Below are positions 1 through 45,792 of a stretch of 51,282 nt of DNA, piece after piece. Location: NCBI GenBank assembly GCA_029258725.1, contig JAPDKE010000046.1:1-51282 (forward strand). Reading direction: 5' to 3'. This stretch comes from a bacterium (GTDB lineage Bacteria > Hydrothermota > UBA3072 > JAPDKE01). The position numbers and the translations under genes are program-made. The notes beneath the pieces are model-generated. The model was not told the origin of the DNA. It ran no database searches and worked only from the letters and a program-made list of their open reading frames with translations. Numbering within the stretch: the first letter of the stretch is position 1; the number at the start of each line of letters is the position of its first letter.

Positions 1-2
1 AC

Positions 3-569: not shown

Positions 570-573
570 GGGT

Positions 574-641
574 CGCCCGGTCTTTTTACCCGAGATGGAA
601 AAGGGGAACAGCCATGCTCCTTTCTGCTTTTATTCCGGGCG
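574..641. other. Inverted repeat between convergent genes, possible structured RNA or terminator
   Basis: CGCCCGG at 574-580 pairs with CCGGGCG at 635-641. Inside it, 600-606 can pair with 617-623 around a 10-nt loop, giving a two-level hairpin. It lies just after the stop of the gene ending at 569 and before the 3' end of recO on the other strand. There is no clean U-tract directly after the outer stem on either strand. It could be a bidirectional terminator or a small structured RNA; I do not recognise a known RNA family in it. Confidence 0.3.
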
Positions 642-701
642 GGAGATTCAGGTTTTAAGAATTGTTAGAAGAGAGAAAAGCTGGATACCAGCGAGAGGAA
701 A

Positions 702-2632: not shown

Positions 2633-3474
2633 TCTTTCCTCCTGGGAAATCCTTTGCCAAGAACCTCGTGAACGTCTGATATTACAATGAATGCCTCAGG
2701 GTCTTCCTCCTCAACTATCTCCTTTATTCTCTCCTCCTGTCTCCTGTGAATCACACAGAATATAACCCCCCTCCTCTCCTGCGTGAACATCCCCTTACCC
2801 TCAAGCAGAGTGGCTCCTCTTTTTAATTCTTTCATTATCCTCTCCCCTATCTTCTTCTCCCTATTGGTGAATATGTAAACCGCCTTTGCATAATCCCTTC
2901 CTTCCAGAATTATATCTATCATCTTGGATGAGATGAAAAGGGCAATGTAACCCAGGAGGGCAAGTTCGTATGTCCTGAAGGTCCAGGCAGAAAGTAAGAT
3001 AACAAAAGAATCTATTATGAGTATGGATACCCCGGTTGAGAGTCCGGTGTACCTGTTCATTATTCTTCCAAGAATGTCCGTTCCTCCAGTACTTCCCTTC
3101 CCCTTGAGAACAAACCCGAGCCCTGCACCAAGAAGCATTCCCCCATAAACCGAGGCAATAACGGAGTTTTCAGTTATCGCCCCCATGTGAAGGACGCGCT
3201 GGAAAAATTCAGGAAAAAGGGAAAGAAGCACTGTTCCAAGGATGGTCTTCAATCCAAAATCTATCCCGAGAACCCTCACACCCCATAAGAAAATGGGAAC
3301 ATTCAGGGCAAAATAGCTCACACCAAAAGGAACCTTTAAGGTATGATAGAGCACAATGGAAACCCCGCTCACACCACCGGGACTTATCCTGAAGGGAATA
3401 AGAAAAAGAACATAACCCAGGGAGGCAATTGCACTCCCTCCGGCAAGAAAGAGAATGTCCTTCAAAATCTTCAT
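2629..3474 (-). CDS. YitT-family (DUF161/DUF2179) membrane protein
   Basis: The protein has 281 residues. The N-terminal ~200 residues contain five or six membrane segments with the family's glycine-rich signatures: FLIPFRISPGGVSGVSIVL near residues 25-45, and GLGFVLKGKGSTGGTDILG near 115-135. The C-terminal ~80 residues form the soluble DUF2179 domain (AVYIFTNREKKIGERIMKEL ... GVIFCVIHRRQEERIKEIV ... AFIVISDVHEVLGKGF). YitT proteins are widespread inner-membrane proteins of uncertain function, proposed as transporters. Both ends overlap neighbouring genes by 4 nt, so it is fully embedded in the operon. Family assignment is firm; the biochemical role is not known. Confidence 0.88.
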   Translation of the reverse strand: MKILKDILFLAGGSAIASLGYVLFLIPFRISPGGVSGVSIVLYHTLKVPFGVSYFALNVPIFLWGVRVLGIDFGLKTILGTVLLSLFPEFFQRVLHMGAITENSVIASVYGGMLLGAGLGFVLKGKGSTGGTDILGRIMNRYTGLSTGVSILIIDSFVILLSAWTFRTYELALLGYIALFISSKMIDIILEGRDYAKAVYIFTNREKKIGERIMKELKRGATLLEGKGMFTQERRGVIFCVIHRRQEERIKEIVEEEDPEAFIVISDVHEVLGKGFPRRKE

Positions 3475-4628
3475 TCCACCTTTACCTTTTTTATCCTTTT
3501 TTCTGATGCGTCCAGAACGGTGAATTTTATCCCCCCTATTTCTATGGTTTCACCCTCATCCGGTATCCTTCCAGTATGCTCCATTATCAAACCTGCAACC
3601 GTTCCCTTCCCGGGCAGTTCCTTTTCAACAAGTTTTTCAAGGTCCTCAACCTTGAACTCACCGCTTATTATGTACTCTCCTTTCTTCAGCAACCTTGGAT
3701 GCTCCGCCATCTCACTCACTATCTCGGTTATTATATCCTCCATCGTGACTATCCCGGCAGTCCCTCCATACTCGTCAATTACAACCGCCATCCTGTTTAT
3801 ATCGTCCTTCAATTCAAGCAAAACCTCCTCACACGTCTTATCCTCGGGAACAAACTTCACGGGCTTGAGGTAGGAGAGCACACTCTTCCCATTTCCATAA
3901 AGAATATCAAGTATATTAACTACTCCTATCACATTGTCAATACTTCCATCGTAAACCGGAAACCTGGTGTGCCCCGTTTTTTTAACCACTTCCTTCAGTT
4001 CCTCAAGACTTATATCCTTCTCAACAGCCTTTATCCTCACCCGTGGAACCATAACGTCCCTAACAGGTCTTGACACTATCTCCATCACCTCCTCTATCAT
4101 TCTCAGGGCCTCAGGTGAAAGTCCCCCTTCAAGTTCAGCCTCCTTGAGTGCAACCACCATCTCCCTTTTGGAAAATCTTTCCCTGTCAGGGGAGGTCCTG
4201 AAAATGGCAAGAAAAATCCTTGAAAGTCCGTAGGTGAGGAAGATTATGGGATAGAGGAGGAAGTAGAAGAAGTAAAGAACCCTTGAATTTGTTACCGCAA
4301 CCCTTTCCGGAAACCTTAAAGTAAGACTCTTGGGGATGGTCTCACCGAACACAAGAAGAATAACAGTTGAAAGGACAATGGATAAGAATGGCTCTTTCAC
4401 CAGCCTGTGGAAAAGAAGGGAGAATGAAATTATGGAAAGGTTCGTTCCCACGAGGACAGCAGGAAGGAATATCTCAGGATGGAAGTAGAGTTCCTTTGCA
4501 AATCCGTATTTTCTGCTGCGCCTTGAAAGATAGAATATCCTGGATGCCCTGGAGGCGACCAGTGCCATCTCGGTGGATGTAAAGAAGGCGGTGAGAAGCA
4601 AAAAGAAAAGGAGCCCTATGAGTATCAT
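3471..4628 (-). CDS. CNNM/CorC/HlyC-family transmembrane protein with CBS pair (second copy)
   Basis: The family's domains appear in order in 385 residues: an N-terminal DUF21/CNNM membrane domain (about 1-170) with the signature FGETIPKSLTLRFPE; a CBS pair (about 190-305) including the start VRDVMVPRVRIKAV; and a C-terminal CorC_HlyC domain (about 315-385). The motif DEYGGTAGIVTMEDIITEIV is highly conserved in the family. Members are linked to Mg2+/Co2+ efflux or homeostasis. It sits directly after a paralogue of the same architecture, with 4-nt overlaps on both sides. Consecutive paralogues of unequal sequence suggest an old duplication rather than a recent one. Substrate is inferred from family and from the nearby mgtE. 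Confidence 0.9.
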   Translation of the reverse strand: MILIGLLFFLLLTAFFTSTEMALVASRASRIFYLSRRSRKYGFAKELYFHPEIFLPAVLVGTNLSIISFSLLFHRLVKEPFLSIVLSTVILLVFGETIPKSLTLRFPERVAVTNSRVLYFFYFLLYPIIFLTYGLSRIFLAIFRTSPDRERFSKREMVVALKEAELEGGLSPEALRMIEEVMEIVSRPVRDVMVPRVRIKAVEKDISLEELKEVVKKTGHTRFPVYDGSIDNVIGVVNILDILYGNGKSVLSYLKPVKFVPEDKTCEEVLLELKDDINRMAVVIDEYGGTAGIVTMEDIITEIVSEMAEHPRLLKKGEYIISGEFKVEDLEKLVEKELPGKGTVAGLIMEHTGRIPDEGETIEIGGIKFTVLDASEKRIKKVKVE

Positions 4629-5773
4629 CTCTTTGTCACCTTCACCTTTTCTATCTTCCTTCCCCTCACACTCTCTATGGTAAATATGAGTTCGTGATAG
4701 GAGTAGGTTTCTCCTTCCCTGGGGACCCTTCCAAGCAAAGAGTAAATGAGTCCTGCAACCGTGTTGTAGTCACCCCTGGGTAGTTCTATTCCCAGGAGTT
4801 CCTCAAGTTCCTTTATCTCCATCTCGCCATCCACCAGGTATCCATCGGGCAGAACCTGATAGAGTGTCTCCCAGGAGTACTTTCCAAGTGCCTCGGCAAA
4901 AAGGTCCTCCATCTGAACAAGCCCCTCTGTTCCACCGTATTCATCCACAACCACCGCACATTTTTCCCTTTTTCTGTGGAAGAGTTCCAGAATTTCCCTT
5001 GAGGATGCCTCCTCAGGAATAAATATTGCAGGTTTCATAACGTCCTTAACAGTCTTTCCTCCGGATGCAAATATGTCCTTTGCATGGAGAATCCCAACAA
5101 CATTATCCCTCGTTCCACGGTAAACAAGAGCCCTTTCCGTTCTTGCCCTCCTTATGGTCTCAAGTGCCTGGTCAACGGATGCGTTTTCAGGAACAAACAG
5201 GATATTAACCCTCGGGACCATAAGGTCCCTTGCCTTTTTCTCAACAAGGGAAAGTATCCCCTTGAAAAGAACTGCCTCTGTCTCCCTCACAACCCCTCTC
5301 TCCTTCCCCATCTCAACAAGCATCTCTATGTCCTTCAGCGTAATCTTTTCCTTCCTTCCCCCCTTTATCCTTCCCTGCATGATATTTATAAGCCATGAAA
5401 CAGGGAAAAGAACAAAGTGAACCGGGAGAAGCAGGGGGGAGGAGAAGAGGGAAAATCTTTCAGCATGGTAAACTGCTATCATCTTCGGGGTTATCTCACC
5501 TGCTATAAGGATAATGAAGGTTATAATGAAGGTCTGGTAAAGGAAGGAGAGTTTGATTGCGTCCTCAAAATATGTGGAAAAAGCAATGTTTACGAATGTA
5601 TTTGCGAGTATGATTGATATGAGGAGAACCGATGGATTGCGTGTTATTAATCCGAGTATTTTCCCGATTTTTCCCTTCCTTGAAAGAAAGAGTATTCTCC
5701 ATGAGGGGAGTGAAAATATTGCGGTTTCTGATGCGGAGAAGAAGAAGGAAAGTAAGAGAAACAGGAATATCAT
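4625..5773 (-). CDS. CNNM/CorC/HlyC-family transmembrane protein with CBS pair (first copy)
   Basis: This 382-residue paralogue has the same layout: a DUF21/CNNM membrane domain (about 1-165, with ITPKMIAVYHAERFS), a CBS pair starting at ARDLMVPRVNILFV, then the strongly conserved VVVDEYGGTEGLVQMEDLFAEALG and a CorC_HlyC C-terminal domain ending near VRGRKIEKVKVTKR. It follows ybeY with a 4-nt overlap and is followed by the second copy with a 4-nt overlap. In many bacteria a CorC-type gene follows ybeY, so this copy probably holds the ancestral position. The likely role is divalent cation handling at the inner membrane, by family inference. Confidence 0.9.
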   Translation of the reverse strand: MIFLFLLLSFFFSASETAIFSLPSWRILFLSRKGKIGKILGLITRNPSVLLISIILANTFVNIAFSTYFEDAIKLSFLYQTFIITFIILIAGEITPKMIAVYHAERFSLFSSPLLLPVHFVLFPVSWLINIMQGRIKGGRKEKITLKDIEMLVEMGKERGVVRETEAVLFKGILSLVEKKARDLMVPRVNILFVPENASVDQALETIRRARTERALVYRGTRDNVVGILHAKDIFASGGKTVKDVMKPAIFIPEEASSREILELFHRKREKCAVVVDEYGGTEGLVQMEDLFAEALGKYSWETLYQVLPDGYLVDGEMEIKELEELLGIELPRGDYNTVAGLIYSLLGRVPREGETYSYHELIFTIESVRGRKIEKVKVTKR

Positions 5774-6162
5774 AGTTTTGAGAGATAGTACCTTTCCTTC
5801 TCCCTCATCTTTTTCCTCTCCTCCTCGGTCCTGTCCCCGTATCCTGCAAGATGGAGGACACCATGTGCGGTTAAAAGCAAAAGTTCTTCTTCAAGTGTCT
5901 GTCCGTATTGGGCTGCCTGTCTTTTTGCAGTATCAATGGATATGTAAATATCACCTATTATTCCATGTTCGTGGATGGGAAATGCTATAACATCCGTTGG
6001 TCTGTCCCTTCCGAGATACCTTTTATTGAGTTCCCTTATTTCTCTATCCCCAACAAATGTAATGCTCACCTCCCCATCCAGTCCCTCTTCCTGGAGGATG
6101 AGTTTTGCAAGGCGCTCTACCTTTCTTTTCCCGCGGGAGAGATTATTCACCCAGACCTTCAT
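5770..6162 (-). CDS. ybeY: Endoribonuclease YbeY (rRNA maturation), unusual third metal-ligand position
   Basis: YbeY is a single-strand endoribonuclease that helps 16S rRNA 3'-end maturation and ribosome quality control. The 130-residue protein has the expected core: V-G-D-x-E-I-R-E-L-N-x-x-Y-L-G-R-D-R-P-T-D-V-x-x-F, then GDIYISIDTAKRQA, then the metal site. The family motif is H-G-x-L-H-L-x-G-Y-D-H. Here it reads HGVLHLAGYGDRTEEE, so the position of the third histidine is aspartate with arginine after it. I checked the codons on the minus strand and see no frameshift. The start overlaps the 7TM-HD gene by 20 nt. Operon context (phoH, HD protein, CorC, recO) is classic for ybeY. Confidence 0.93.
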   Translation of the reverse strand: MKVWVNNLSRGKRKVERLAKLILQEEGLDGEVSITFVGDREIRELNKRYLGRDRPTDVIAFPIHEHGIIGDIYISIDTAKRQAAQYGQTLEEELLLLTAHGVLHLAGYGDRTEEERKKMREKERYYLSKL

Positions 6163-8071
6163 AGTCTATCCGCTCATGTCTTGAACCGCAGAGGAAGGGA
6201 TAAAATACCTCTTTTATCTTCTCTATATCCTTTAAAGATAATCCTGAATTGTCCATCTGATGGTCCTTTACTTTTTCATCAACAATTTTTTCTATCAACG
6301 CCTTTATTTTTTCAGGTGCTGGTTCCTCAAGGCTCCTTGCCGCAGCCTCAACAGAATCAGCAAGCATGACAACTGCGGATTCCCGGGATGATGGAACTGG
6401 TCCAGGATACCTGAACTCCTTCTCATCCACTTCCCCATTCTCTCTTTTCTCCTTCTCATAAAATGCCCTTATCAGGGTTGTTCCATGGTGCTCTCTTATT
6501 ATCCGGATTATCTCCTCGGGGAGCCTTTCCTTCCTTGCAAGTTCAACCCCATCCTTTACATGGGATTTGAGAATGATTGCGGAGGTCCTGGGAGAAAGTC
6601 TGTCGTGTGGATTTCTTCCGGTTGAATTTTCAATGAAGAACTCCGGTCTTTTTATCTTACCTATGTCGTGATAATATCCTCCAACCCTTGCAAGGAGGGA
6701 ATTTGCTCCTATTGCCTCACATGCTGCCTCTGCAAGAGCACCAACTATAAGGGAATGATTGAATGTTCCAGGTGCCTCCATTGCAAGCCTTCTCAAAATT
6801 GGACGGTTCAGGTCTGAAAGTTCAAGGTAGGTGAGGTTGGTTGTGAGATGGAACAATCTTTCAAAAACAGGTAAAAATCCAAGTGTGAGCAAAACAGAAC
6901 CAAGGGTATTGAGGACGCAGAACCCTGAAGCCTTCAGAATTTCCAAAACCCTCATTCCCCTTACGAGTTCCACGGATACCATGGAAATAAGGAGGATAAA
7001 AAATATCACTATTCCGGAATAGTAGAACTCTGCCCTGTGCCTCAATTTTCTTACTTCTATTCCTCCACCTATTCCGGTGAGGGTGAGAATGAAGGGAATG
7101 TAGGAGCGGAGACCTGTGAAGAGAAGAAGGGACATGGAGAGGAAGAGGGAGCCTATTATCCCGAGTTCAAAATCGGAAAGGAGTGTTAAAGTAAGACCTG
7201 CAAATCCAAGTGGAAGAATGTAAAAGGCAAAGGGATTGTCAAGCAGGGTTGTTATCCTTGCAATGAAAAGAATTATCAAGGATACGAAGAATATGAGGAG
7301 AATATGCCTGAGGGAGTCCAGAATTTCTTTTTTCTTGAAGTAGAGATAGAAGTAGAGGAAGGAAACAAGGAATATAAGATAGAGAAACTTCCCTGCGTAT
7401 ACCTTTATCTCCCTTTTCCCCCTCCTCGCCTCCTCAAGGGACCTGAGTTTCTCCTCCACCTCCTCGGTGACAACATCGTGTGCCCTTATTATCATCTCGC
7501 CTTTAAGAACCCTTCCCTTGTAGGGAGAAACCTTATCACCTGCCTCCTTCCTCCTTCTTTCGGTCTCAACCAGGTCAACCCTGAGGTTTGGTGTGAGCAT
7601 GTAAAAAAGGGTGTCTATCTTGGGGTCTTTTATCTCTGAAAGCCTGCGTTTTGCCTCTGAAAGTGTAAGGATACTGTCCTTATCAACCATGTATTCTCTT
7701 GAATCCCTCTTTACAACCACCTTTCTCCCGTAGAATGGTGGTATCTCATCCTTTGTTTCAAGAACTCCCTTTGACAGGACCGAGATTATCTTCTTCCTTT
7801 CCTTTTCCGGGAATTTTTTAAGGTACTCCATTATCTCCTCATCTATTCCCGTGTAAACAAGAACAGGTGGAACAAGCATGTATGCCCTTTCCTTTTCAAG
7901 GGCATACTGTTCCTGTGGCTTTTTCACGTAAAAATCACATGGAGCAATTATATCCCTCGGGGCGATATCGCCTTTCTTCAGGTTAAACCGATATCCTGTT
8001 CTCGGTGTTAATAAAAGCACAGAAAGGGAAAATAATACCCCGTACAGGGCTCTCAGGCTCCAGTACCTCAC
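6143..8071 (-). CDS. 7TM-HD membrane phosphohydrolase (PgpH-like, probable c-di-AMP phosphodiesterase)
   Basis: The protein has 642 residues. It shows an N-terminal membrane anchor, an exported 7TMR-HDED domain (about residues 30-215), a block of about seven membrane segments (about 225-415), and a cytoplasmic HD domain (about 435-600). The HD-domain motifs are FNHSLIVGALAEAA, then YYHDIGKIKRPEFFIEN (HD pair), then H-V-K-D-G-V-E-L-A and EHHGTTLIRAFY. This is the architecture of PgpH, which degrades cyclic di-AMP, and the gene commonly lies between phoH and ybeY, as here. It overlaps phoH by 4 nt and ybeY by 20 nt. No diadenylate cyclase gene is seen in the window. Activity is inferred from the family. 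Confidence 0.9.
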   Translation of the reverse strand: MRYWSLRALYGVLFSLSVLLLTPRTGYRFNLKKGDIAPRDIIAPCDFYVKKPQEQYALEKERAYMLVPPVLVYTGIDEEIMEYLKKFPEKERKKIISVLSKGVLETKDEIPPFYGRKVVVKRDSREYMVDKDSILTLSEAKRRLSEIKDPKIDTLFYMLTPNLRVDLVETERRRKEAGDKVSPYKGRVLKGEMIIRAHDVVTEEVEEKLRSLEEARRGKREIKVYAGKFLYLIFLVSFLYFYLYFKKKEILDSLRHILLIFFVSLIILFIARITTLLDNPFAFYILPLGFAGLTLTLLSDFELGIIGSLFLSMSLLLFTGLRSYIPFILTLTGIGGGIEVRKLRHRAEFYYSGIVIFFILLISMVSVELVRGMRVLEILKASGFCVLNTLGSVLLTLGFLPVFERLFHLTTNLTYLELSDLNRPILRRLAMEAPGTFNHSLIVGALAEAACEAIGANSLLARVGGYYHDIGKIKRPEFFIENSTGRNPHDRLSPRTSAIILKSHVKDGVELARKERLPEEIIRIIREHHGTTLIRAFYEKEKRENGEVDEKEFRYPGPVPSSRESAVVMLADSVEAAARSLEEPAPEKIKALIEKIVDEKVKDHQMDNSGLSLKDIEKIKEVFYPFLCGSRHERIDYEGLGE

Positions 8072-35924: not shown

Positions 35925-35953
35925 TACACGATAGAATAACCGGTAAGGTTTCA
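35925..35953 (-). promoter_or_regulatory. Probable ECF-type promoter of the second sigma factor gene
   Basis: On the minus strand TGAAAC (35953-35948), 17-nt spacer, CGTGTA (35930-35925). This is close to the TGAAAC-N16-CGTATA consensus known for Bacillus SigW/SigX-type ECF factors, suggesting autoregulation. It predicts a very short or no leader before ATG 35914. Confidence 0.5.
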
Positions 35954-36141
35954 AAAATCCATAAACCTAATCTGAGGATTTTTGTGGGCAATTTTGGGGA
36001 GTGGGATTATCGCTCTCTGCCACGATTGGGGATAAAACTACGGAGGAATTTTTCCTTCCGGGGGAAGTTTTCTCTGGAAATCCAGGATTCTTTCATCCAC
36101 CAACCCTCATACACCCCTTCCACAAAAACGCTCAATTTAGG
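35954..36141. other. Intergenic stretch without a recognisable gene
   Basis: Between the ECF promoter and the tail remnant. Short open frames exist on the plus strand, but none has a ribosome site, conserved motif or clear coding pattern. It could be a decayed exported-protein gene, given that the following remnant has lost its 5' part. Confidence 0.4.
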
Positions 36142-36248
36142 ATGTTTACACTCAATTTATTCCTCAGGAAGATAAGGCACAGATAAGGCTGGTGGCAGGG
36201 AGAATCGAGGTTGACAGATGGAAAAAATGGGTTACAATAAAGATATAA
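36142..36248 (+). pseudogene. Remnant of the shared C-terminal tail tract
   Basis: The last ~35 codons of the shared tail (VYTQFIPQ-----AQIRLVAGRIEVDRWKKWVTIKI, then stop) are present in frame and almost identical to positions 40827-40933 and 44891-44997. Upstream similarity stops abruptly, and an in-frame TAG precedes it. It is therefore the 3' end of a lost third array member. Its downstream flank is the first copy of the leader cassette, as at the other two tail ends. Confidence 0.85.
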
Positions 36249-36259
36249 GGAGGAAAGGA

Positions 36260-36382
36260 ATGAGAAATTGTAAAGATTTCATGGTTATCCATCTTGCCCC
36301 TTCCTATCCCGAGAGGGAGGAAAAGGAGGAAGGGGTTTTTGTTTTTTTAAAAAACGGGAAAGGAGGATTAGATGAAAAATGA
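36260..36382 (+). CDS. Conserved leader small ORF, copy 1 (attenuator-like cassette)
   Basis: Forty codons starting MRNCKDFMVIHLAPSYPERE, with a strong ribosome site (AAGGAGGAAAGGA). Two further copies of this frame lie at 40945 and 45009. Substitutions between copies change codons but never the frame up to the V-F-V-F-L segment. Codons 13-30 overlap a terminator hairpin, and the stop lies 11 nt inside the next gene. The arrangement suggests a translated leader that affects read-through into the downstream gene. A peptide product may or may not matter. Confidence 0.55.
   Translation: MRNCKDFMVIHLAPSYPEREEKEEGVFVFLKNGKGGLDEK
36297..36348 (+). terminator. Terminator hairpin inside leader cassette 1
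   Basis: CCCCTTCCT (36297-36305) pairs with AGGAAGGGG (36327-36335); an inner TCCC-GAGA-GGGA hairpin sits in the loop, and TTTTTGTTTTTTT follows. This is a good intrinsic terminator, yet the next gene's ATG is only 36 nt downstream and is reached by the leader ORF. Confidence 0.75.
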
Positions 36383-37049
36383 ACAAATTCTTTTTATACT
36401 TTTTCTCTCTTTAATGTTAACTTTCAGAATAATGGCTTTTGAGAATGGAGACATTAGAACAAGCTCGGGTTGGCTTAATGGAGATAACATGGAGTATAAA
36501 AGTATTTTAGAGATGGAGCAGAGATTTCTTTCACGAGGGATAGAGAAAAATTTAAGAAGCAGAGTTTGTGCAGAAGATGCTTTTGCATATAAAAATGAAA
36601 ATGGCGTGAGAAATTCAAATTGGGAAGTGAAAATTGGTATAAAGGGAAGCGAAATCCTTGGATTATACGGAGAGTATCGTTTATACCCGGGATTTGGAAT
36701 ATTTCTGGATTATTACTTCCAGCCCATTCTGGGGCTTCCAATAAACAATATTGAGTTTTGCATTGAAAGAGTATCTACCTACCGAATGTTAGATATAACC
36801 TTACCAACTGTAATCGTAGGTTTTAGAATGCAAAGCCCGTTCCCGTTTCTTTCAAACTGTATAGGAATAAAGTGTTATTATATTATTCCCTGCCTATACG
36901 GATATATCAGCCTGAATCTTAGTTCTTTTGTAAAGATAAGAATAGGAACACACATCTTTCCTATTTTAAGTCCAGAAGGGAGAGGGGGTATTTTCCCATC
37001 GGGTGAAATGATCATGAGTTTTTGGAGTAAAGGATGGAGGATACGATGA
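36372..37049 (+). CDS. Exported, probably beta-barrel protein of unknown function
   Basis: The 225-residue protein has a signal peptide (MKNEQILFILFLSLMLTFRIMAF). The mature part has alternating, aromatic-rich strands: YGEYRLYPGFGIFLDYYFQPILGLPINNIEFCIERVS, TLPTVIVGFRMQSPFPFLSNCIGIKCYYIIPCLYGYISLNLSSFVKIRIGTHIFPI. The pattern fits an outer-membrane barrel. It is paralogous to the next gene over its C-terminal half (F-x-P-x-x-G-L-P-I, R-x-x-S-P, I-G-I-K-x-Y-Y, G-x-x-I-F-P). It lies behind leader cassette 1, and its stop overlaps the next start (ATGA). Confidence 0.7.
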   Translation: MKNEQILFILFLSLMLTFRIMAFENGDIRTSSGWLNGDNMEYKSILEMEQRFLSRGIEKNLRSRVCAEDAFAYKNENGVRNSNWEVKIGIKGSEILGLYGEYRLYPGFGIFLDYYFQPILGLPINNIEFCIERVSTYRMLDITLPTVIVGFRMQSPFPFLSNCIGIKCYYIIPCLYGYISLNLSSFVKIRIGTHIFPILSPEGRGGIFPSGEMIMSFWSKGWRIR

Positions 37050-37603
37050 AAAAAGACATAATCTTTATTATTTTTTTTCTTTTTCCAATTATTGCACAAT
37101 CAGAGAATAAGAGCTTCTCTACGAAGCTTAAATTTACTTATTCTAATGAACCACGAAATAATCTGGATGGCCAGGATATTAGTAAAATGCGAATAGGAAT
37201 AACAGGGGGATTATTACAGACTGGGCAAAACACATTTATTATCCCCTTAGGAATTTACCTGGATTATCAGTTCAGACCCCTCTGGGGATTACCTATAACG
37301 GGATTGGAGTTCTCCTTAATCAGCTATTACGATGACGGCAAAATCACCATACCATTCCCTCACATATATGTGACTTATAGAATCCGATCTCCTGTTAAGG
37401 CTTTATCTTTTTACATAGGGATAAAATTTTATTATTTTCTTCCTTCACTTACAGGATGTGTCCTTTTGAAAATATGGAATCCACTTTACCTGAAAGTAGG
37501 GGCCTCTATTTTTCCTGTAGGAGTGGGGCAACAAGGTGAAGGAGGAGTTTCATTTTGGGGTAATGTAGATTTAGACTTTTTAAAGCAAAGGAAGATGCAA
37601 TGA
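37046..37603 (+). CDS. Exported, probably beta-barrel protein, paralogue of the preceding gene
   Basis: The start is placed at ATG 37046 (MKKDIIFIIFFLFPIIAQSE, a signal peptide), which overlaps the previous stop and has GGAGG before it; a frame from 37034 is less likely. The 185-residue product shares with its neighbour the segments FRPLWGLPITGLEFSL, IYVTYRIRSPVKALSFYIGIKFYYFLPSLTG and VGASIFPVG. The two genes therefore arose by duplication. Location in the outer membrane is inferred from the strand pattern. The stop overlaps the PHP gene start (ATGA). Confidence 0.72.
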   Translation: MKKDIIFIIFFLFPIIAQSENKSFSTKLKFTYSNEPRNNLDGQDISKMRIGITGGLLQTGQNTFIIPLGIYLDYQFRPLWGLPITGLEFSLISYYDDGKITIPFPHIYVTYRIRSPVKALSFYIGIKFYYFLPSLTGCVLLKIWNPLYLKVGASIFPVGVGQQGEGGVSFWGNVDLDFLKQRKMQ

Positions 37604-38418
37604 AGAACTGTATGCTCTTTATCCTTTTTTCGATCACAATAGAAAGTGCAGATAAAGCGGTGCCTATATGGCTTAAAGGCGATATTCATATGCATTCTAC
37701 TTATTCAAAAGGAGCTTGGACCGGGGGTGATGGAACTCCATATCAATTAGCAGAGAGAGCATTAAATCCAGGGGCAATGCAGGCGAAATTGGATTTTATA
37801 GTGATCACAGATTATAATTTTGATTTAGGTAATGGAAATTGGAATAACCTTAATGCTGATTGCGATAGTATTACAAGCACCCACTCCAATTTTTTAGCAA
37901 TAGCAGGAACAGAAGTAGGGAAAGAAGGCATTCCAGAAACTTTCTCGGAAAGAGGACATACAGGAGCGATTTTATTCAGAGACATTCCTTCAGATGTAAG
38001 TGATTGGCATACTTTATCTAATTATGAAATAATTCAACGGATACATAGCTATGGTGGATTAGCCGTAGCAAATCATGCTGGAGGAGTATCTTGGGGACTC
38101 ACTCGGTATGATTTTAATGATGGTGGCGATTGTTCCGAAATAATAGATTGTATAGAAATATATAATGGTATGTGGCAGTTTGATTGTCAAACCGATATGT
38201 ATGGAAATCCATGCGGAGATGCTATAGCTCTCCAAAAATGGGAAGAATTTTTGCTGGAAGGCAAAAGAATAGTTGCGGTAGGTGGGAGTGATTGTCATAC
38301 TTATAATGAAGATGTTCCAGGAAGTAGAGACCCCGATATAAATCCATATGGCACTTGTCAAGAATTTTGTGTAAGTTTTATTCATGGTTTATCTCCTCGG
38401 TTTCAAAGGTTTTTCTGA
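37600..38418 (+). CDS. Exported PHP-domain phosphoesterase, 3' end replaced by an IS element
   Basis: A signal-like N terminus (MKNCMLFILFSITIESADKA) precedes a PHP metal-dependent phosphoesterase domain: GDIHMHSTYSKGAWTGGDGTPYQ, FIVITDYNFD, AIAGTEVGKEG, LAVANHAGG, VAVGGSDCHTY. These are the His/Asp metal ligands in the normal order. Native sequence ends at about codon 250 (DPDINPY); the remaining ~22 codons are read from the left end of the IS element. The original protein was probably longer and may have continued into the tail tract that now lies on the other side of the IS. Substrate unknown; exported PHP enzymes act on phosphate esters or nucleic acids. Confidence 0.78.
   Translation: MKNCMLFILFSITIESADKAVPIWLKGDIHMHSTYSKGAWTGGDGTPYQLAERALNPGAMQAKLDFIVITDYNFDLGNGNWNNLNADCDSITSTHSNFLAIAGTEVGKEGIPETFSERGHTGAILFRDIPSDVSDWHTLSNYEIIQRIHSYGGLAVANHAGGVSWGLTRYDFNDGGDCSEIIDCIEIYNGMWQFDCQTDMYGNPCGDAIALQKWEEFLLEGKRIVAVGGSDCHTYNEDVPGSRDPDINPYGTCQEFCVSFIHGLSPRFQRFF
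38350..38375 (+). repeat. Left terminal inverted repeat of the IS element
   Basis: Begins GGCACTTGTC and ends with AATTTTGTGTAAG (38363-38375). The inner 13 bp are a perfect inverted match to 39686-39698; the outer 13 bp match only partly. Confidence 0.75.
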
Positions 38419-39598
38419 ACATAAGGTGCAGGGTCTGGAGGTGGGCTTTGAACACGGGTTCTGGTTTTTGCCAGGAGTTATTCTGGAGGTTATCCAGGTA
38501 GATATACCATTTAACCCACAGTATTTTTTCTGACTGGAAGTATCCTCCTGAGTTTATTCTGATTTTATCCAGTTCTTTATGCAGGTTCTCAGAGGCATTT
38601 GTGGATTTAATCCTTGCTCTTATCTCTCTCGGAAACTTGGTAAAGGTAAGATAGAGTTCCTGATTTCTCTCAAGTTCCTTTGCAAAGTGTGGATGATCTT
38701 TCCGGATGAGGTCTATTTCCTGAGAAAAAATCTCCTTTGCCTCCTCAAAATTCTCTGCCTTCCCTGCCATTTCTACGATCTCCCTGAACCTTTTATAAAG
38801 TTCCTTTTTAAGTCTGTATTTAGCATTTCTTATAAGGTGAACGATACACAGCTGGTGCATGGATAGAGGAAAGAAGGATTTGATGAGTTTTGAGATGCCC
38901 GGAAAGTTATCCGTAACCCACAGAAGCACCCTTTTTACTCCCCTCTGGGATAGATTTTCAAGCATGATTTTCCATGCCTCCAGGGTTTCATTTCCATAGT
39001 GCAGGTGAGAACCAAGAAAGTTTTTCTTTCCGCTCATGTCTATTCCTGTTGCAGTGATCAGGACTGCCTTCTTGATTTCTCCTTTTTCATTTTTAACATC
39101 CAAAACCTTTGCATCCATGAAGATAACAAGCCAGTCTGAGGCAAGTTCTCTTGAGTTCATTGCCTTGAATTCCTGATACAGGGTTTCTGTGATTTCTTCT
39201 ATTTCTTTCTGAGAATATGGAAGGTTGAGTTCTGAGAGGGCTATTTTCAGTGATTGGATGGAGCGGGATGATAAAAGGAGTGCTTCTACGAGTTTCCGGT
39301 ATTCTTCTGGGAGAGTTCTGGAGTATTTTGGAAGAATGGAAGGGAAGAAGGTAGAGTTTCTTGTTCTGGGAATGGAAAGGATGAGGGGTATGGAGCCTAT
39401 AGAGAAGTTCCTTTTGTAAAAGCCATTCTTTGTATCATCCACCTGTTCGAGATGCATTTCCCTTTCCCTTCTCATAATAGCATTGAGGAGAGATGTGAGA
39501 AGAACCTGGAGTAAACTCTCCGCATGAAAGTCCTTGACCTCATCCATTTCTTCCAGTATCTTTTCAATGATATCTTTTAAGGATTTCTTGTTTTTCAT
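38378..39598 (-). CDS. IS256-family (mutator-type) transposase
   Basis: The 406-residue protein starts at ATG 39598 (MKNKKSLKDIIEKILEE), which has ribosome site AAAGGAGG. A longer frame from 39694 runs through a hairpin and is unlikely. DDE catalytic residues are visible: Asp in DWLVIFMDAKVLDV, Asp in VLLWVTDNFPGISKLI, and Glu in IKSTNASENLHKELDKI, with the C/H-rich LCIVHLIRNAKYRL between them as is usual for this family. The N terminus contains AESLLQVLLTSLLNAIMRREREMHL, also typical. The frame appears intact, so the element may be active. Confidence 0.92.
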   Translation of the reverse strand: MKNKKSLKDIIEKILEEMDEVKDFHAESLLQVLLTSLLNAIMRREREMHLEQVDDTKNGFYKRNFSIGSIPLILSIPRTRNSTFFPSILPKYSRTLPEEYRKLVEALLLSSRSIQSLKIALSELNLPYSQKEIEEITETLYQEFKAMNSRELASDWLVIFMDAKVLDVKNEKGEIKKAVLITATGIDMSGKKNFLGSHLHYGNETLEAWKIMLENLSQRGVKRVLLWVTDNFPGISKLIKSFFPLSMHQLCIVHLIRNAKYRLKKELYKRFREIVEMAGKAENFEEAKEIFSQEIDLIRKDHPHFAKELERNQELYLTFTKFPREIRARIKSTNASENLHKELDKIRINSGGYFQSEKILWVKWYIYLDNLQNNSWQKPEPVFKAHLQTLHLMFRKTFETEEINHE

Positions 39599-39629
39599 TT
39601 TTAACCTCCTTTGTTTTTGTTTTTCTTTC

Positions 39630-39654
39630 CCCCTCTCCTTCCCCAGGAGAGGGG
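39630..39654. other. Hairpin in the transposase leader
   Basis: CCCCTCTCCT (39630-39639) and AGGAGAGGGG (39645-39654) form a perfect 10-bp stem around TCCCC. It lies inside the IS, 30-60 nt upstream of the transposase start. Such hairpins in IS leaders commonly limit transposase expression from outside promoters. Confidence 0.6.
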
Positions 39655-39685
39655 ACTTTCTTTTATATAATACCCTCTCCTCCAT

Positions 39686-39711
39686 CTTACACAAAATTTT
39701 TATAACTCCCC
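39686..39711 (-). repeat. Right terminal inverted repeat of the IS element
   Basis: Complement reads GGGGAGTTATAAA then AATTTTGTGTAAG. The core 13 bp (39686-39698) match the left end perfectly. Genomic sequence identical to 43775 onward begins at the last base of this repeat. Confidence 0.72.
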
Positions 39712-40933
39712 TCTTTCTTCTTCCAATTCTTATTCTCCTTTTCTTCTTTATGAGAAGGGGGACTCTTTATTCAGGATGGATTTTCCGTGGGAGGAATGGG
39801 ATACTGTGGCTCTTTATGCCTATCATCCCTGTGCAGGGGTAAGAGAGGGTGTATGGGAGATAGGGGACATAGAAGAGGAGGGGAAGGTTGGAATATACTA
39901 TGGGGATGAACTTGCTGGATGGGCTGAAGGCTGGGCATATCCTGTGGTTCTTGAGGGGTCTGAGGTTTATGTATTCTGGGAATGGGATGGGGATATTTAC
40001 TGCAATGCAAGGGCTCAGGGCTCCTGGATATTCATGACCTTTGGAGAAAAGATAATCAACACTCAGGAAACAGAGAGGAGCGTTCATGCGGTATTCTCTC
40101 ATGATAAGAAAGAGGTCTATCTTGCCTATCTTGAAGGTGAAGATGTTCCTTACAGGATAAGGTTTAAGAAAATAGACCTTTCTCCTTCTGTTTCCGTTCT
40201 TTCTCCCTCTCTCTATGACCATAACTGCAGGCACTGGAGGATAGGGTATCCTGTGAGGATTTCATGGGAGGTTTATAAATCCATTGCTCCTGTCTGTTCC
40301 TGTGTGGTTTATCTGCACAACCTCAATGCAATTCCCGATGGTGATATAAAGAGGATAGGTGTTGTTCCTGTGAATGATAATACTTCTCCCTTTGATACCC
40401 TTTCTCTTTCCTTTACCTGGGTTCCTGACGAGGATCCTGGAGAGTATGAGATTCTTATAAATGTTTACGATGTTCTTGGAAAGGTTGGAACTGCTACAAG
40501 TGATGAGTTTATTCTTACCGATGAACTTGTTCTCAATTCCTCCTTTGAAGATGGTCTATGTTGCTGGGAAAAACTGGATGGGGTTCCCATGGAGGTGGAG
40601 ACAGGGGCGGTTCATGGGGATTCATGTGTGAAGTTTATTCTTAATGGGGTTGAGGATTATGCATCCCTGAGGCAGGTTGATATTCCTGTTGTCCCAGGTG
40701 AGAGTTACTGGTTATCTGGCTGGATTAAGACTTCCCTTGATGGGGGGAGGGCGAAGATGGACATAAGGGATACTACTGGTTCTTCTTCTCTGTGTGGTAA
40801 TTTAAGGGGAGATAATGAATGGAGATATGTTTACACTCAATTTATTCCTCAGGGTAACAGGGCACAGATAAGGCTGGTGGCAGGGAGAATCGAGGTTGAC
40901 AGATGGAAAAAATGGGTTACAATAAAGATATAA
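39711..40933 (+). repeat. Tail tract, copy A (near-identical to 43775-44997)
   Basis: These 1,223 nt match 43775-44997 without any gap (constant offset 4,064). I noticed only three differences by eye: one giving Gly to Ala (GNRAQ/ANRAQ) and two silent. The match ends exactly at the IS border on the left and continues, less perfectly, into the leader cassette on the right. Such identity points to recent duplication or gene conversion. Confidence 0.92.
39776..40933 (+). pseudogene. 5'-truncated propeller/CBM tail (ORF fragment)
   Basis: A 385-codon open frame starting at an internal methionine (MDFPWEEWDTVALYAYHP). It encodes the C-terminal third of the metallopeptidase described at 41716: part of a propeller-like domain, an Ig-like segment (SPSLYDHNCRHWRIGYPVRISW), and a carbohydrate-binding-like module (LVLNSSFEDGLCCWEKLDG ... 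YWLSGWIKTSLDGGRAKMDI ... RAQIRLVAG). It has no signal peptide and no ribosome site, because its 5' part is cut off at the IS. It is therefore probably not expressed as a useful protein, although it could act as a sequence donor for the intact gene. Confidence 0.85.
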
Positions 40934-40944
40934 GGAGGAAAGGA

Positions 40945-41064
40945 ATGAGAAATTGTAAAGGTTTCATGGTTATCCATCTTACCCCTTCCTGTCCCTTAAG
41001 GGAGGTAAAGGAAGAAGGGGTTTTTGTATTTTTAAAGACGGGAAAGGAAAGGAGGACAAAATGA
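40945..41064 (+). CDS. Conserved leader small ORF, copy 2 (attenuator-like cassette)
   Basis: Thirty-nine codons, MRNCKGFMVIHLTPSCPLRE..., preceded by AAGGAGGAAAGGA. The terminal TGA overlaps the ATG of the next gene (ATGA), so it is coupled to it. It has the same reading frame and length as copy 1 through the VFVFL segment, despite several base changes. Confidence 0.55.
   Translation: MRNCKGFMVIHLTPSCPLREVKEEGVFVFLKTGKERRTK
40982..41032 (+). terminator. Terminator hairpin inside leader cassette 2
   Basis: CCCCTTC (40982-40988) pairs with GAAGGGG (41014-41020), with a perfect TCCCTTAAGGGA palindrome (40992-41003) in the loop and TTTTTGTATTTTT after. The inner palindrome differs from copies 1 and 3 in sequence but keeps its pairing, which supports a folded RNA. 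Confidence 0.7.
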
Positions 41065-41714
41065 TGCATGGATTTTTTCTTTCAGGACTTTTTGTATTAA
41101 GTGCATACGTTGCGCCTGATAAGGAGTATGGGTTAAAAACTCCTTATTCCTTAGGCTCACTATGCGAAAGGGCAACAGCGATAGTGATAGGGGTTGTTAA
41201 ATCTGTAAGGTATGTAAAAGAGTGGGAAAAATGGTCAAAATCATGGGGGGTAAGAAAGATTGTAAATCTCCATGCATTGGAAGATATAAAAAATGAGTGG
41301 AAGGACTCTCTGCTCACTGTTAAAACTCGAACAGATGCAAATTTTTCCCCTTTTGAAACAGTACTTGTGTTTGTTCAGGATACAAGAAAATGGGGGGAAT
41401 TTCATCCCTGGTGGGATAGATGCCCATGGCTGAGAGGAGATACGATGGAGGTGGCAGGATGGCGGTTTGGGAAATATCGAATAGTAAATGATACTCTCAG
41501 ATTTGAGCAATTTGGAATAAAGAAGTTTGGAATACCGCTGGATATTGCTAAAGGGGTTATAAAGGCTGCTATTGAATATCCCCATATTGTGGATGCTAAA
41601 ATAGATACTGTTTATGAAGAGGCTATGGAAATGCTTAAAACAAAAGATGAGGACACCGTACGGCAGTGGGTTTATGGAGAGTTAAGAAAGATAGAGGAAC
41701 TTGTGGAGGAGTAA
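41061..41714 (+). CDS. Exported protein of unknown function
   Basis: The 217-residue protein has a signal peptide (MMHGFFLSGLFVLSAYVAPDKEYG). The body includes CERATAIVIGVVKSVRYVKEW, ETVLVFVQDTRKWGEFHPWWDRCPWLRGDTMEVAGWRFGKYRIV, then a helical C terminus (DAKIDTVYEEAMEMLKTKDEDTVRQWVYGELRKIEELVEE). The first part has the feel of an OB-like or beta-barrel fold, but no family is recognised. It sits between leader cassette 2 and the metallopeptidase gene, ending 1 nt before the metallopeptidase ATG. It could be a chaperone, inhibitor or secretion partner for it. Confidence 0.68.
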   Translation: MMHGFFLSGLFVLSAYVAPDKEYGLKTPYSLGSLCERATAIVIGVVKSVRYVKEWEKWSKSWGVRKIVNLHALEDIKNEWKDSLLTVKTRTDANFSPFETVLVFVQDTRKWGEFHPWWDRCPWLRGDTMEVAGWRFGKYRIVNDTLRFEQFGIKKFGIPLDIAKGVIKAAIEYPHIVDAKIDTVYEEAMEMLKTKDEDTVRQWVYGELRKIEELVEE

Positions 41715-41715
41715 G

Positions 41716-44700
41716 ATGAAGAGGATGGGAAAATTTCTTTTAGTGCCATCGTTGATACTTTTGGTTTTTTGTGACGGTGGAGAATCGTATAAGTTTAACA
41801 ATCGTTGGTGGGAGCAGGGGAGGGTTCTGGTTTATGTAGATACTCTTATCCCCTATAACTGGATTAATGCGATACAGCAGGCAATAGAAACATGGGATAC
41901 GGCTGGTTCGTATTTCAGATTTTATTATCACGGCGCAAGGGCATCAGCATACCGAATATATCTGGATTCCTCCCTTGCTGGAAGCAACATATTGGCAGAA
42001 GTAAGACTCCCAGAGGAAGAGGGTCCTTTTCCGGGGTATGCTTGGGAGATTAGGATTAATCCTGATATTAACTGGAGTGTTGCAGATACTCCCAATCCTG
42101 ATGAATTTGATCTTCAATCGGTTATTCTTCATGAATTGGGTCATTGGCTTTCACTTGGGGATCTTTATTCTGATGGAAATAGAGATGAGGTGATGTATTA
42201 TGCATTCGCTCCTGGGGAGGTAAGAAGAGAGCTTGGAATTAAAGATAAGGAAGGTATTATTGCGATATATGGGGATGCCTACTATGAAAAAGAGTGGCCA
42301 CTTCCTCCTGCCTGGGTAAGAGAAATCCGTTATGTTGCGGATTCACAATTGGTATATATTTTCTGGGAGCGAGTCGATTCGGCAGATGGATACAAAGTAT
42401 ACCTTGGAGGCACCGATGATATTCTTATGGGAAGCGTTATTTATGCAGATATATACTGGGATACATGTGTTCGGATTCCTTATTCAGATTTGGGATATAT
42501 ACCCGATGATGGCGATAGTATTTTATGGGTATGGGTTACGACTTACAAAAAAATTGAGATATCAACTTCTTTATTTGATGATACTACACGGAAATATGAA
42601 AGTGATTTTGATTTTGGTACACCTTTCTATCGCGATAGAAAAGGTCCTGAACCGGTTGAGAGTCTTTATATAGTGGAGGTAAAAGAAAACAGTGTAGTTT
42701 TAGGATGGAAGAATCCATCTTCTTCTGACTTTGCCGGCATACATATTCGTTCCGCCTTGGATGGTTATCCATCTTCCCCCAATGATGGTGAGTATGTATT
42801 CTATGGTAGCTTGGGAGGTCCGGGAGAGAGGGTGACTTATCAGGTAACGGGTCTTCTTCCCTGTACCACCTATTATTTTGCTATTTTTGCATACGACAGC
42901 ATTGGAAATTATGCTCCACCAGGGTTAATCAATGTGAGAACTCTGGCTCTTAATCCTCCTTCTGGTTTAACTGCTTCTCCCCTCTCCCATTCTTCCATCC
43001 GCCTCACCTGGCGGGATAATTCCAGGTATAATACGGGGTATGAGATTGAATATAAGGTTGAAGATGGAGATTGGCAGTTCTTAACCACGGTTTCAGATAT
43101 AGAAGGTTCATCGGGTTCAATGATGAGTCATACGGTTAATAATCTTTCTCCTTCAACCAGGTATTCTTTCAGGGTAAGGGCTTATGATGACGAGGGACAT
43201 TATTCAGGGTGGTCCAATAAGGATTCATGTATAACCCATCCCTATCTTACATCAAGGGAGCCTGATGCATTAAGATTTAACAATTCCAGGAAGGTTGCGG
43301 TTGCACCTGATGGAACCATATGTCTTGTTCATACATGTCATGGGAAGGTATGGTATACCCAGTCCCAGGATGGGGTGAACTGGGAGAAAGAAAAAAAGAT
43401 AGGGGAAGGAATTTATCCAGCAATAGCAGTTGATGATAATGGAACAAGATGGGTGGTCTGGTGGGATAAGAACAAGACCAAAAAGTTGAGGGTTGCATGG
43501 AGTGATGATGGCAGGAGATGGGAAAAGGATTTTCTTTCTCATTCCTTCTTTAACATCTACATTAAAAGGCATCCATCCATTGTCTGGTCTTCCTTGCTGA
43601 GGAAGGTTATTGTTGCTGTGAGGGATAAGAAACAGGAGGCTCATTACCATCGTGAGATAATAACCCTATTTACCTTTGATAAGGAAGACATCTTAAATTC
43701 TATGGTTGATGTTAAGGAAATAGAGGTTGGGTGGACAAGGATTAGTGAAGGGGAACCTGCTGTTGGCTTTATCTCTCTTTCTTCTTCCAATTCTTATTCT
43801 CCTTTTCTTCTTTATGAGAAGGGGGACTCTTTATTCAGGATGGATTTTCCGTGGGAGGAATGGGATACTGTGGCTCTTTATGCCTATCATCCCTGTGCAG
43901 GGGTAAGAGAGGGTGTATGGGAGATAGGGGACATAGAAGAGGAGGGGAAGGTTGGAATATACTATGGGGATGAACTTGCTGGATGGGCTGAAGGCTGGGC
44001 ATATCCTGTGGTTCTTGAGGGGTCTGAGGTTTATGTATTCTGGGAATGGGATGGGGATATTTACTGCAATGCAAGGGCTCAGGGCTCCTGGATATTCATG
44101 ACCTTTGGAGAAAAGATAATCAACACTCAGGAAACAGAGAGGAGCGTTCATGCGGTATTCTCTCATGATAAGAAAGAGGTCTATCTTGCCTATCTTGAAG
44201 GTGAAGATGTTCCTTACAGGATAAGGTTTAAGAAAATAGACCTTTCTCCTTCTGTTTCCGTTCTTTCTCCCTCTCTCTATGACCATAACTGCAGGCACTG
44301 GAGGATAGGGTATCCTGTGAGGATTTCATGGGAGGTTTATAAATCCATTGCTCCTGTCTGTTCCTGTGTGGTTTATCTGCACAACCTCAATGCAATTCCC
44401 GATGGTGATATAAAGAGGATAGGTGTTGTTCCTGTGAATGATAATACTTCTCCCTTTGATACCCTTTCTCTTTCCTTTACCTGGGTTCCTGACGAGGATC
44501 CTGGAGAGTATGAGATTCTTATAAATGTTTACGATGTTCTTGGAAAGGTTGGAACTGCTACAAGTGATGAGTTTATTCTTACCGATGAACTTGTTCTCAA
44601 TTCCTCCTTTGAAGATGGTCTATGTTGCTGGGAAAAACTGGATGGGGTTCCCATGGAGGTGGAGACAGGGGCGGTTCATGGGGATTCATGTGTGAAGTTT

Positions 44701-44997
44701 ATTCTTAATGGGGTTGAGGATTATGCATCCCTGAGGCAGGTTGATATTCCTGTTGTCCCAGGTGAGAGTTACTGGTTATCTGGCTGGATTAAGACTTCCC
44801 TTGATGGGGGGAGGGCGAAGATGGACATAAGGGATACTACTGGTTCTTCTTCTCTGTGTGGTAATTTAAGGGGAGATAACGAATGGAGATATGTTTACAC
44901 TCAATTTATTCCTCAGGCTAACAGGGCACAGATAAGGCTGGTGGCAGGGAGAATCGAGGTTGACAGATGGAAAAAATGGGTTACAATAAAAATATAA
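41716..44997 (+). CDS. M10-type metallopeptidase lipoprotein with FN3, propeller-like and CBM-like domains
   Basis: The 1,093-residue protein starts at ATG 41716 (ribosome site GGAGGAG; an earlier TTG frame is less likely). Signal and lipobox LLVFC give a lipoprotein. Residues ~25-190 are a matrixin-like zinc peptidase: HELGHWLSLGD has His139, Glu140, His143, and Asp149 where matrixins have a third His; Met160 fits the Met-turn. About 320-405 and 410-505 are fibronectin type III domains (PPSGLTASPLSHSSIRLTWRDNS). About 515-800 looks like a sialidase/BNR propeller (YTQSQDGVNWEKEKKIG; AWSDDGRRWEKDF). A CBM-like module (LNSSFEDGLCCWE) ends the protein. It likely degrades an extracellular protein or peptide on a polymer surface. 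The last 1,223 nt duplicate 39711-40933. Confidence 0.85.
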   Translation: MKRMGKFLLVPSLILLVFCDGGESYKFNNRWWEQGRVLVYVDTLIPYNWINAIQQAIETWDTAGSYFRFYYHGARASAYRIYLDSSLAGSNILAEVRLPEEEGPFPGYAWEIRINPDINWSVADTPNPDEFDLQSVILHELGHWLSLGDLYSDGNRDEVMYYAFAPGEVRRELGIKDKEGIIAIYGDAYYEKEWPLPPAWVREIRYVADSQLVYIFWERVDSADGYKVYLGGTDDILMGSVIYADIYWDTCVRIPYSDLGYIPDDGDSILWVWVTTYKKIEISTSLFDDTTRKYESDFDFGTPFYRDRKGPEPVESLYIVEVKENSVVLGWKNPSSSDFAGIHIRSALDGYPSSPNDGEYVFYGSLGGPGERVTYQVTGLLPCTTYYFAIFAYDSIGNYAPPGLINVRTLALNPPSGLTASPLSHSSIRLTWRDNSRYNTGYEIEYKVEDGDWQFLTTVSDIEGSSGSMMSHTVNNLSPSTRYSFRVRAYDDEGHYSGWSNKDSCITHPYLTSREPDALRFNNSRKVAVAPDGTICLVHTCHGKVWYTQSQDGVNWEKEKKIGEGIYPAIAVDDNGTRWVVWWDKNKTKKLRVAWSDDGRRWEKDFLSHSFFNIYIKRHPSIVWSSLLRKVIVAVRDKKQEAHYHREIITLFTFDKEDILNSMVDVKEIEVGWTRISEGEPAVGFISLSSSNSYSPFLLYEKGDSLFRMDFPWEEWDTVALYAYHPCAGVREGVWEIGDIEEEGKVGIYYGDELAGWAEGWAYPVVLEGSEVYVFWEWDGDIYCNARAQGSWIFMTFGEKIINTQETERSVHAVFSHDKKEVYLAYLEGEDVPYRIRFKKIDLSPSVSVLSPSLYDHNCRHWRIGYPVRISWEVYKSIAPVCSCVVYLHNLNAIPDGDIKRIGVVPVNDNTSPFDTLSLSFTWVPDEDPGEYEILINVYDVLGKVGTATSDEFILTDELVLNSSFEDGLCCWEKLDGVPMEVETGAVHGDSCVKFILNGVEDYASLRQVDIPVVPGESYWLSGWIKTSLDGGRAKMDIRDTTGSSSLCGNLRGDNEWRYVYTQFIPQANRAQIRLVAGRIEVDRWKKWVTIKI
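43775..44997 (+). repeat. Tail tract, copy B (inside the metallopeptidase gene)
   Basis: Gap-free match to 39711-40933. The intact gene carries this copy. Base composition of the tract looks higher in GC than the peptidase-encoding first half of the gene, as if the two parts had different histories (impression, not measured). Confidence 0.92.
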
Positions 44998-45008
44998 GGA
45001 GGAAAGGA

Positions 45009-45155
45009 ATGAGAAATTGTAAAGGTTTCATGGTCATCCATCTTACCCCTTCCCCGCCCGAGAGGGAGGAAAAGGAGGAAGGGGTTTTTGTTTTTTTAAG
45101 GCAAAGGAAAGGAGGGAGCGATGGTAATGGTATTTTTGCTTTTATCAGCGGGTGA
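45009..45155 (+). CDS. Conserved leader small ORF, copy 3 (attenuator-like cassette)
   Basis: Forty-eight codons, MRNCKGFMVIHLTPSPPERE..., preceded by AAGGAGGAAAGGA. It overlaps the next gene by 35 nt in another frame. It matches copies 1 and 2 codon by codon through VFVFL and then diverges. Confidence 0.55.
   Translation: MRNCKGFMVIHLTPSPPEREEKEEGVFVFLRQRKGGSDGNGIFAFISG
45046..45097 (+). terminator. Terminator hairpin inside leader cassette 3
   Basis: CCCCTTCC (45046-45053) pairs with GGAAGGGG (45077-45084), followed by TTTTTGTTTTTTT. The next gene's ATG is 36 nt further on. Confidence 0.75.
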
Positions 45156-45792
45156 AGTCAATCAGGATGTGCCTTTGTGGAAGAAGTTGTCTTATAGCAT
45201 TGGGTATTCAGGGGGACTGTGCTGGAGAGGAAAAGATTTGATGCCTTATTGTCCTTATATGTTTTGCTGGGAGTGGCCTTTTTACCATCTTCATTCCATA
45301 GAATTGAGTGCAATATATCCTTTTGGAAATGGGGAAGGGATTGAGGTGGGAGTAGGATATGGGTGGGCAAGGATAGAGGATGCGAAAGGGTGGTTTAAGG
45401 TGGTGTATTTACCCGATGATACTATGAGATTACATGGATGGTTCAGTGCCAATTTACATTCTTTTACTATCACTGTTTCACCATGGAATGATGAAGTCTT
45501 TTTAAAACCTTTTTTGAGTTTATGTGGTGTGTTAGCAAAAGGTTCTGAAAATAGAGGCAGTCTTTGGTTTCCTGTAAATAGGGTTTCTATAGGGTTAGAA
45601 GCCGGGATTACAGGGTTTTATAAGTTTAGACTTTCCAGAGTGATTATTACGCCCTTTTTATCTTTCACTTTTTCATATCTACGTGAGGTCTGGAATGATT
45701 CACCCTGGAATGAATACTGGGAGAAAACTCTTTCTGTGTCTTTAAGTGGTCTATACGGAGGAATCAAAATAAACTTTGGAGGTGTGAGATGA
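45121..45792 (+). CDS. Exported, probably beta-barrel protein of unknown function
   Basis: The 223-residue protein has a short hydrophobic start (MVMVFLLLSAGEVNQDV). The rest is an array of amphipathic strands rich in Trp, Tyr and Gly: LSYSIGYSGGLCWRG, HSIELSAIYPFGNGEGIEVGVGYGWARI, HGWFSANLHSFTITVSPWND, NRVSIGLEAGITGFYKFRLSRVIITPFLSFTFSYL, LSVSLSGLYGGIKINFGGVR. The last strand ends near the C terminus, as in outer-membrane barrels. The start ATG is preceded by GGAGGGAGCG. It lies behind leader cassette 3 and overlaps the lipase gene by 4 nt, as the other small exported proteins do with their large partner genes. Confidence 0.72.
   Translation: MVMVFLLLSAGEVNQDVPLWKKLSYSIGYSGGLCWRGKDLMPYCPYMFCWEWPFYHLHSIELSAIYPFGNGEGIEVGVGYGWARIEDAKGWFKVVYLPDDTMRLHGWFSANLHSFTITVSPWNDEVFLKPFLSLCGVLAKGSENRGSLWFPVNRVSIGLEAGITGFYKFRLSRVIITPFLSFTFSYLREVWNDSPWNEYWEKTLSVSLSGLYGGIKINFGGVR

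Follow-up and report, generated by a model that had tools for sequence, protein, structure and literature searches.

The window, i.e. the whole 51,282-nucleotide stretch of DNA analysed here, contains three copies of a short cassette in which a small leader ORF lies between a promoter and the next gene and runs through an intrinsic terminator. The features of the three copies, and the genes that follow them, are located as follows:

36211..36238, plus strand: promoter of copy 1, TTGACA-N16-TACAAT (11/12 matches; one of the top three promoter-like sites in the scan)
36260..36382, plus strand: leader ORF of copy 1, MRNCKDFMVIHLAPSYPEREEKEEGVFVFLKNGKGGLDEK and stop
36296..36352, plus strand: intrinsic terminator hairpin and U-tract within leader ORF 1 (-21.6 kcal/mol)
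36372..37049, plus strand: downstream gene 1, 225 aa, with a signal-peptide-like N-terminus and without Pfam match
40896..40923, plus strand: promoter of copy 2, within the 3' end of the upstream ORF (11/12 matches)
40945..41064, plus strand: leader ORF of copy 2, MRNCKGFMVIHLTPSCPLREVKEEGVFVFLKTGKERRTK and stop, which overlaps the next start as ATGA
40981..41035, plus strand: intrinsic terminator hairpin and U-tract within leader ORF 2 (-17.3 kcal/mol)
41061..41714, plus strand: downstream gene 2, 217 aa, with a signal-peptide-like N-terminus
41701-44997: matrixin/fn3/CBM gene, after downstream gene 2
44960..44987, plus strand: promoter of copy 3, within the 3' end of a 1098-aa gene (11/12 matches)
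45009..45155, plus strand: leader ORF of copy 3, MRNCKGFMVIHLTPSPPEREEKEEGVFVFLRQRKGGSDGNGIFAFISG and stop
45045..45098, plus strand: intrinsic terminator hairpin and U-tract within leader ORF 3 (-22.4 kcal/mol)
45121..45792, plus strand: downstream gene 3, 223 aa, with a signal-peptide-like N-terminus
45789 to the window end: long lipase-like ORF, after downstream gene 3

The original prediction, made from the window alone, described three copies that share a ribosome site, the start of an ORF, a hairpin within that ORF and an end overlapping the next gene, and this description holds. All three have GGAGG, an ATG, an ORF beginning MRNCK[DG]FMVIHL and an internal hairpin with U-tract, and the coordinates confirm that the leader end overlaps the start of the next gene in 3/3 copies, by 11 nt (start 36372), 4 nt (start 41061) and 35 nt (start 45121). 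The positions then assigned to the copies (36249-36371, 40934-41060 and 44998-45120) are replaced by those of the ORFs listed above, as the earlier starts marked the first base following the upstream stop (copies 2 and 3) or its equivalent (copy 1); GGAGG begins 11 nt before the leader ATG in each copy. Overlooked at that time were both the promoters upstream and the copies outside the window.

It had also been proposed to look in the genome for the ORF motif beside a terminator. In the source genome (2.11 Mb, 53 contigs), searches by DNA, peptide and covariance model gave 11-13 matches each, a family beyond chance, of which 7 copies have an intact ORF and terminator and about 5 are degraded; 2 more intact copies lie on a contig of a relative. 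The copies of the source genome outside the window are:

C13:10407, C13:6585, C13:9573 and C28:4084, minus strand: four further intact copies
C26:11889: degraded copy, hairpin 3' arm absent
C13:31077: degraded copy, U-tract absent
C25:30662 and C13:5775-5787: degraded copies, stop after 17 codons, then a second promoter
C47:4792: copy interrupted by the contig end

Common to the intact copies are the ribosome site and, at roughly nt 37-100 of the ORF, the hairpin and its U-tract; their frames comprise 37-71 codons, except in one copy fused in frame with the next gene, and each leader end adjoins or passes the next start codon. The fused copy is C13:10407, where a 252-aa fusion with the downstream exported protein is possible, with an internal start at MMHG (locus L031, 9649-10449, on C13, minus strand). 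At L031 5579-5803 (C13, minus strand) and C25:30613-30872, a truncated leader is followed by the second promoter and then by a gene beginning MSKHKRDLVIYAVSSSSRKEEKGGKIF, whose first codons match the leader model weakly (E about 0.001-0.002); from this match, the gene is possibly a leader fused into a gene.

Among 85,000 species genomes a single contig matched, JAPDKB010000018.1 (L057), which is labelled as archaeal and carries the two intact copies at 3880 and 6275. The same two genes as behind window copy 3 follow L057:3880, and positions 1-6649 hold close homologues of window genes and leaders, though the contig is filed under an archaeal MAG; L057 is probably a misbinned contig of a relative. 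The collection holds no other genomes of the source's genus or order, and in 146 other genomes of the phylum peptide and covariance-model searches yielded no genuine copy. One peptide match among the 147 phylum genomes searched (G035), beside ABC-transporter genes, was rejected as a chance hit, and weak covariance-model matches in G011, G023 and G079 were generic palindromic repeats. No copies were found in viral contigs or plasmids, and no Rfam match to the leader up to E = 1 among 4227 families. The cassette is a real, multicopy family limited to this lineage.

In the window copies the hairpin is formed by CCCCTTCC and GGAAGGGG (AGAAGGGG in copy 2) at ORF nt 37-77 and is followed by the U-tract. 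Five copies of the genome and L057:3880 give -17 to -24 kcal/mol with a U-tract, C13:9573 gives -19.0 kcal/mol with a weaker U-tract, and C13:6585 folds the terminator poorly, with or without ribosome placement. Among 93 promoter-SD-ATG sites examined, only members of this leader family have a strong terminator (below -15 kcal/mol) within 150 nt of the ORF start. The inner stem had been said to change sequence while keeping its pairing, which did not survive the alignment: the CCC/GGG stem is invariant, the tetraloop alone varies (GAGA, TTAA, GAAA), and no two-sided (compensatory) change was found in any terminator pair. Whole-leader folding energies are ordinary compared with shuffled sequences (z from +0.1 to -1.8). 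The SD can pair with the terminator 5' arm at -7 to -12 kcal/mol, less stably than the terminator itself folds, and a candidate SD-sequestering fold, which was derived from these same sequences, has pairs in 97% of cells, no better than shuffles.

All nine intact copies have a leader ORF with SD whose frame spans the terminator and is open through the hairpin. The earlier claim that differences between copies keep the frame is borne out, as nine copies align without a single indel across ORF nt 1-87; the one 3-nt deletion among them is in the U-tract. Even in C26, which has lost the hairpin 3' arm, the frame persists and ends over the next start codon. When unconstrained change was simulated in a crude way, the chance that all frames stay open came to 0.03-0.15, so this evidence is modest. 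Inferred changes in nt 4-81 fall on the three codon positions as 16/17/17, and the codon-level comparison between copies that had been suggested gave pN/pS of 0.54 for codons 2-12 and 0.94 for codons 13-30; the evenness over codon positions means that the peptide sequence is not visibly selected. SD and ATG are retained in all copies, and Cys4 and Phe7 are present in 12/12 aligned copies, Lys5 in 11/12. Judged from the alignment, the conserved trait is an open, indel-free frame through the hairpin; a peptide free of visible selection is expected of an open-frame attenuator but not of a functional peptide. Since the copies are recently related and recombine, the conservation may partly reflect inheritance.

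A strong sigma-70-type promoter lies just 5' of nearly all copies. TTGACA-N16-TACAAT, with 11/12 matches, is found 49 bases 5' of all three window ATGs, and these are the top three promoter-like sites in a scan of 34.5-51.3 kb. C28 and C26 have a common, different promoter (TTGACA-N17-TTATCC), C13:6585 and C13:9573 have others, and for L057:6275 an own promoter is not visible; the distance to the ATG is nearly equal across copies. In the genome, TTGACA-N30..45-GGAG-N4..10-ATG occurs at 114 sites, compared with 2 for the reversed-pattern control, and the promoter-ATG spacing of the leader is the usual one. Hence the leader ORF occupies the normal place of a first gene, and, being the first ORF of its own transcript, it puts the hairpin on the transcript of the downstream gene.

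A hydrophobic signal-peptide-like N-terminus was found by a rough N-terminal test in 9/9 distinct downstream genes examined, three of them lipoprotein-like. The same test is passed by 28/64 other first genes, and some of the nine are paralogues, so the association with export is suggestive only; by this test the downstream genes are predicted to encode exported proteins. Families recognised nearby are a matrixin with fn3 and a carbohydrate-binding domain, LVIVD repeats and PD40; the three direct targets in the window have no Pfam match.

We consider each copy to be a self-contained unit of a promoter and a translation-dependent attenuator of transcription, a reading to which we assign a probability of roughly 0.55, and in which we infer antitermination by translation. 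Transcription would start about 15 nt 5' of the leader ATG. Without translation of the leader, or with a first ribosome that lags behind, the GC-rich hairpin (nt 37-77) would form and the polymerase would stop in the U-tract, giving an RNA of ~110 nt. A ribosome arriving in time at about codon 9-10 would cover the 5' arm and prevent the hairpin, and the polymerase would go on to transcribe the exported-protein gene, which begins within or next to the end of the leader. When the leader is folded with one ribosome placed on it, the terminator stem stays for ribosome positions at codons 1-8; once the ribosome is at codons 9-10, the stem largely disappears in most copies. Ribosomes in E. coli do little to suppress a terminator that lies in the first ~100 bp of a coding region, except where the polymerase pauses (PMC4824070), so readthrough might be low here and the default state may be off. 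The purpose would probably be to couple costly exported proteins to translation capacity.

The portable, translation-coupled unit of the original prediction is the best-supported reading, for which the cassette's own promoter, the many exported-protein genes and the open frame in nine copies speak; the covarying stem falls away as support. With about a dozen copies, the cassette probably lets translation decide the transcription of exported-protein genes. It is possible, at a lower level of confidence, that the dispersed cis-element forms a lineage-specific regulon, in which a promoter and translated-through terminator before exported-protein operons would be tied to translation capacity and would also serve as a constant ‘expression site’ for surface-gene swapping.

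The cassette family itself is new, and translated-terminator control is already known from a few other bacteria. In the pyrBI leader of E. coli (pyrL), a closely following ribosome prevents a terminator hairpin inside the leader ORF (PMC5021804, PMC4824070). As there, the intrinsic terminator lies within the leader ORF, and a promoter directly 5' (by sequence; not seen in L057:6275) places leader and terminator on the gene's own transcript. In contrast, pyrBI is a single locus with pyrimidine genes and UTP-dependent polymerase pausing, while here many copies precede exported-protein genes; no pyrimidine biosynthesis genes were found downstream of the leaders, which precede genes for exported proteins, lipoproteins and an LVIVD-repeat protein instead. 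The pil1 and pil3 loci of Streptococcus gallolyticus are similar in having a promoter, an SD, a leader of ~38 aa, a premature terminator, surface-protein genes downstream (here exported by the rough N-terminal test) and more than one locus, and the pil1 surface pili are expressed once the leader frame reaches or passes the terminator (PMC3894217). There, GCAGA repeats switch the frame (phase variation), whereas here 9/9 intact copies are in the open frame; inspection of the leader revealed no slippage-prone short tandem repeats, and the alignment is indel-free over nt 1-87. Leaders of the trp/his type share the leader peptide and terminator, but in trp/his the terminator is preceded by a stop codon and competes with an antiterminator, and the leader has runs of regulatory codons; none of these was seen in the intact leaders. 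Leader ORFs that cross a terminator have been described at a few single loci; with a multicopy family, an uncultured lineage would be seen to use the device as a portable, regulon-wide control, and the nine natural variants of this family are available for testing what an attenuator needs (frame, hairpin) and does not need (peptide sequence).

The strongest competitor, which we hold improbable though clearly worth weighing, is that the hairpin merely ends upstream transcription and that its purine/pyrimidine-rich sequence happens to give an ORF, which was duplicated along with the DNA around it. Copies 2 and 3 begin 11 nt after the upstream stop and have 1.2 kb of upstream DNA in common, the stretch from recN to the C28 copy showed no further terminator, the even change of codon positions agrees with it, and the T-poor 3' arm seldom yields stop codons by itself. 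However, nearly every copy has a promoter after the upstream gene and before the hairpin, which means that transcripts of the downstream gene itself would also be stopped there, and the SD and ATG kept everywhere are of no use to a terminator. Moreover, the upstream neighbour of C13:10407 is divergent, and the copies at 36260 and L057:3880 follow IS debris and a 3'-end fragment, which rules out for these copies that the hairpin is only the terminator of an upstream gene. In other copies it could additionally serve the upstream gene, e.g. recN before C28.

The spread of the cassette bears on a second alternative, somewhat less probable again, in which it is mainly a recombination module: constant promoter-leader-signal-peptide DNA would anchor the swapping of surface-protein gene bodies and the attenuator would be passive cargo. 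Identity between copies is highest at -60 to +180 and falls sharply in the gene body: copy 3 and L057:3880 are 100% identical at 120-180 and 48% at 240-300, and for copy 2 and C13:10407 identity is 100%, then 46%, and further on up to 88%. Copy 3 is a mosaic of copy 2-like sequence and sequence like that of L057:6275, with which it is 98% identical only over nt 25-86, and several copies are decayed. From these profiles, the cassette and the signal-peptide start appear to be copied as one module. Yet the full architecture persists in diverged copies with unrelated flanks, and recombination accounts for the spread, not for an open frame retained through the hairpin.

That the ORF encodes a functional small protein, with the hairpin incidental or tuning its ratio to the next gene, we regard as highly improbable, for its proper promoter, SD and start and its constant Cys4, Phe7 and nearly constant Lys5 are set against the even codon-position changes, the pN/pS values above, varied C-termini and a genuine match not found elsewhere in the phylum.

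Traces of rearrangement surround the window copies. A Mutator-family transposase gene (38378-39694) is followed at 39776-40933 by an ORF of 385 aa that repeats the C-terminal portion of the 1098-aa matrixin/fn3 protein, and the DNA of leaders 2 and 3 is 98.7% identical from -1234 to +110; by this identity, the region 39776-40933 is a partial duplication that brought promoter and leader along. At 37600-38418, an ORF that looks like the beginning of a PHP-type phosphoesterase (GDIHMHSTYSKGAW; no Pfam match) is cut off at the edge of the transposase element. At 35940-36150 of the window and at 4129-4440 of L057, IS-like debris, oppositely oriented, adjoins the 3'-end fragment upstream of the cassette.
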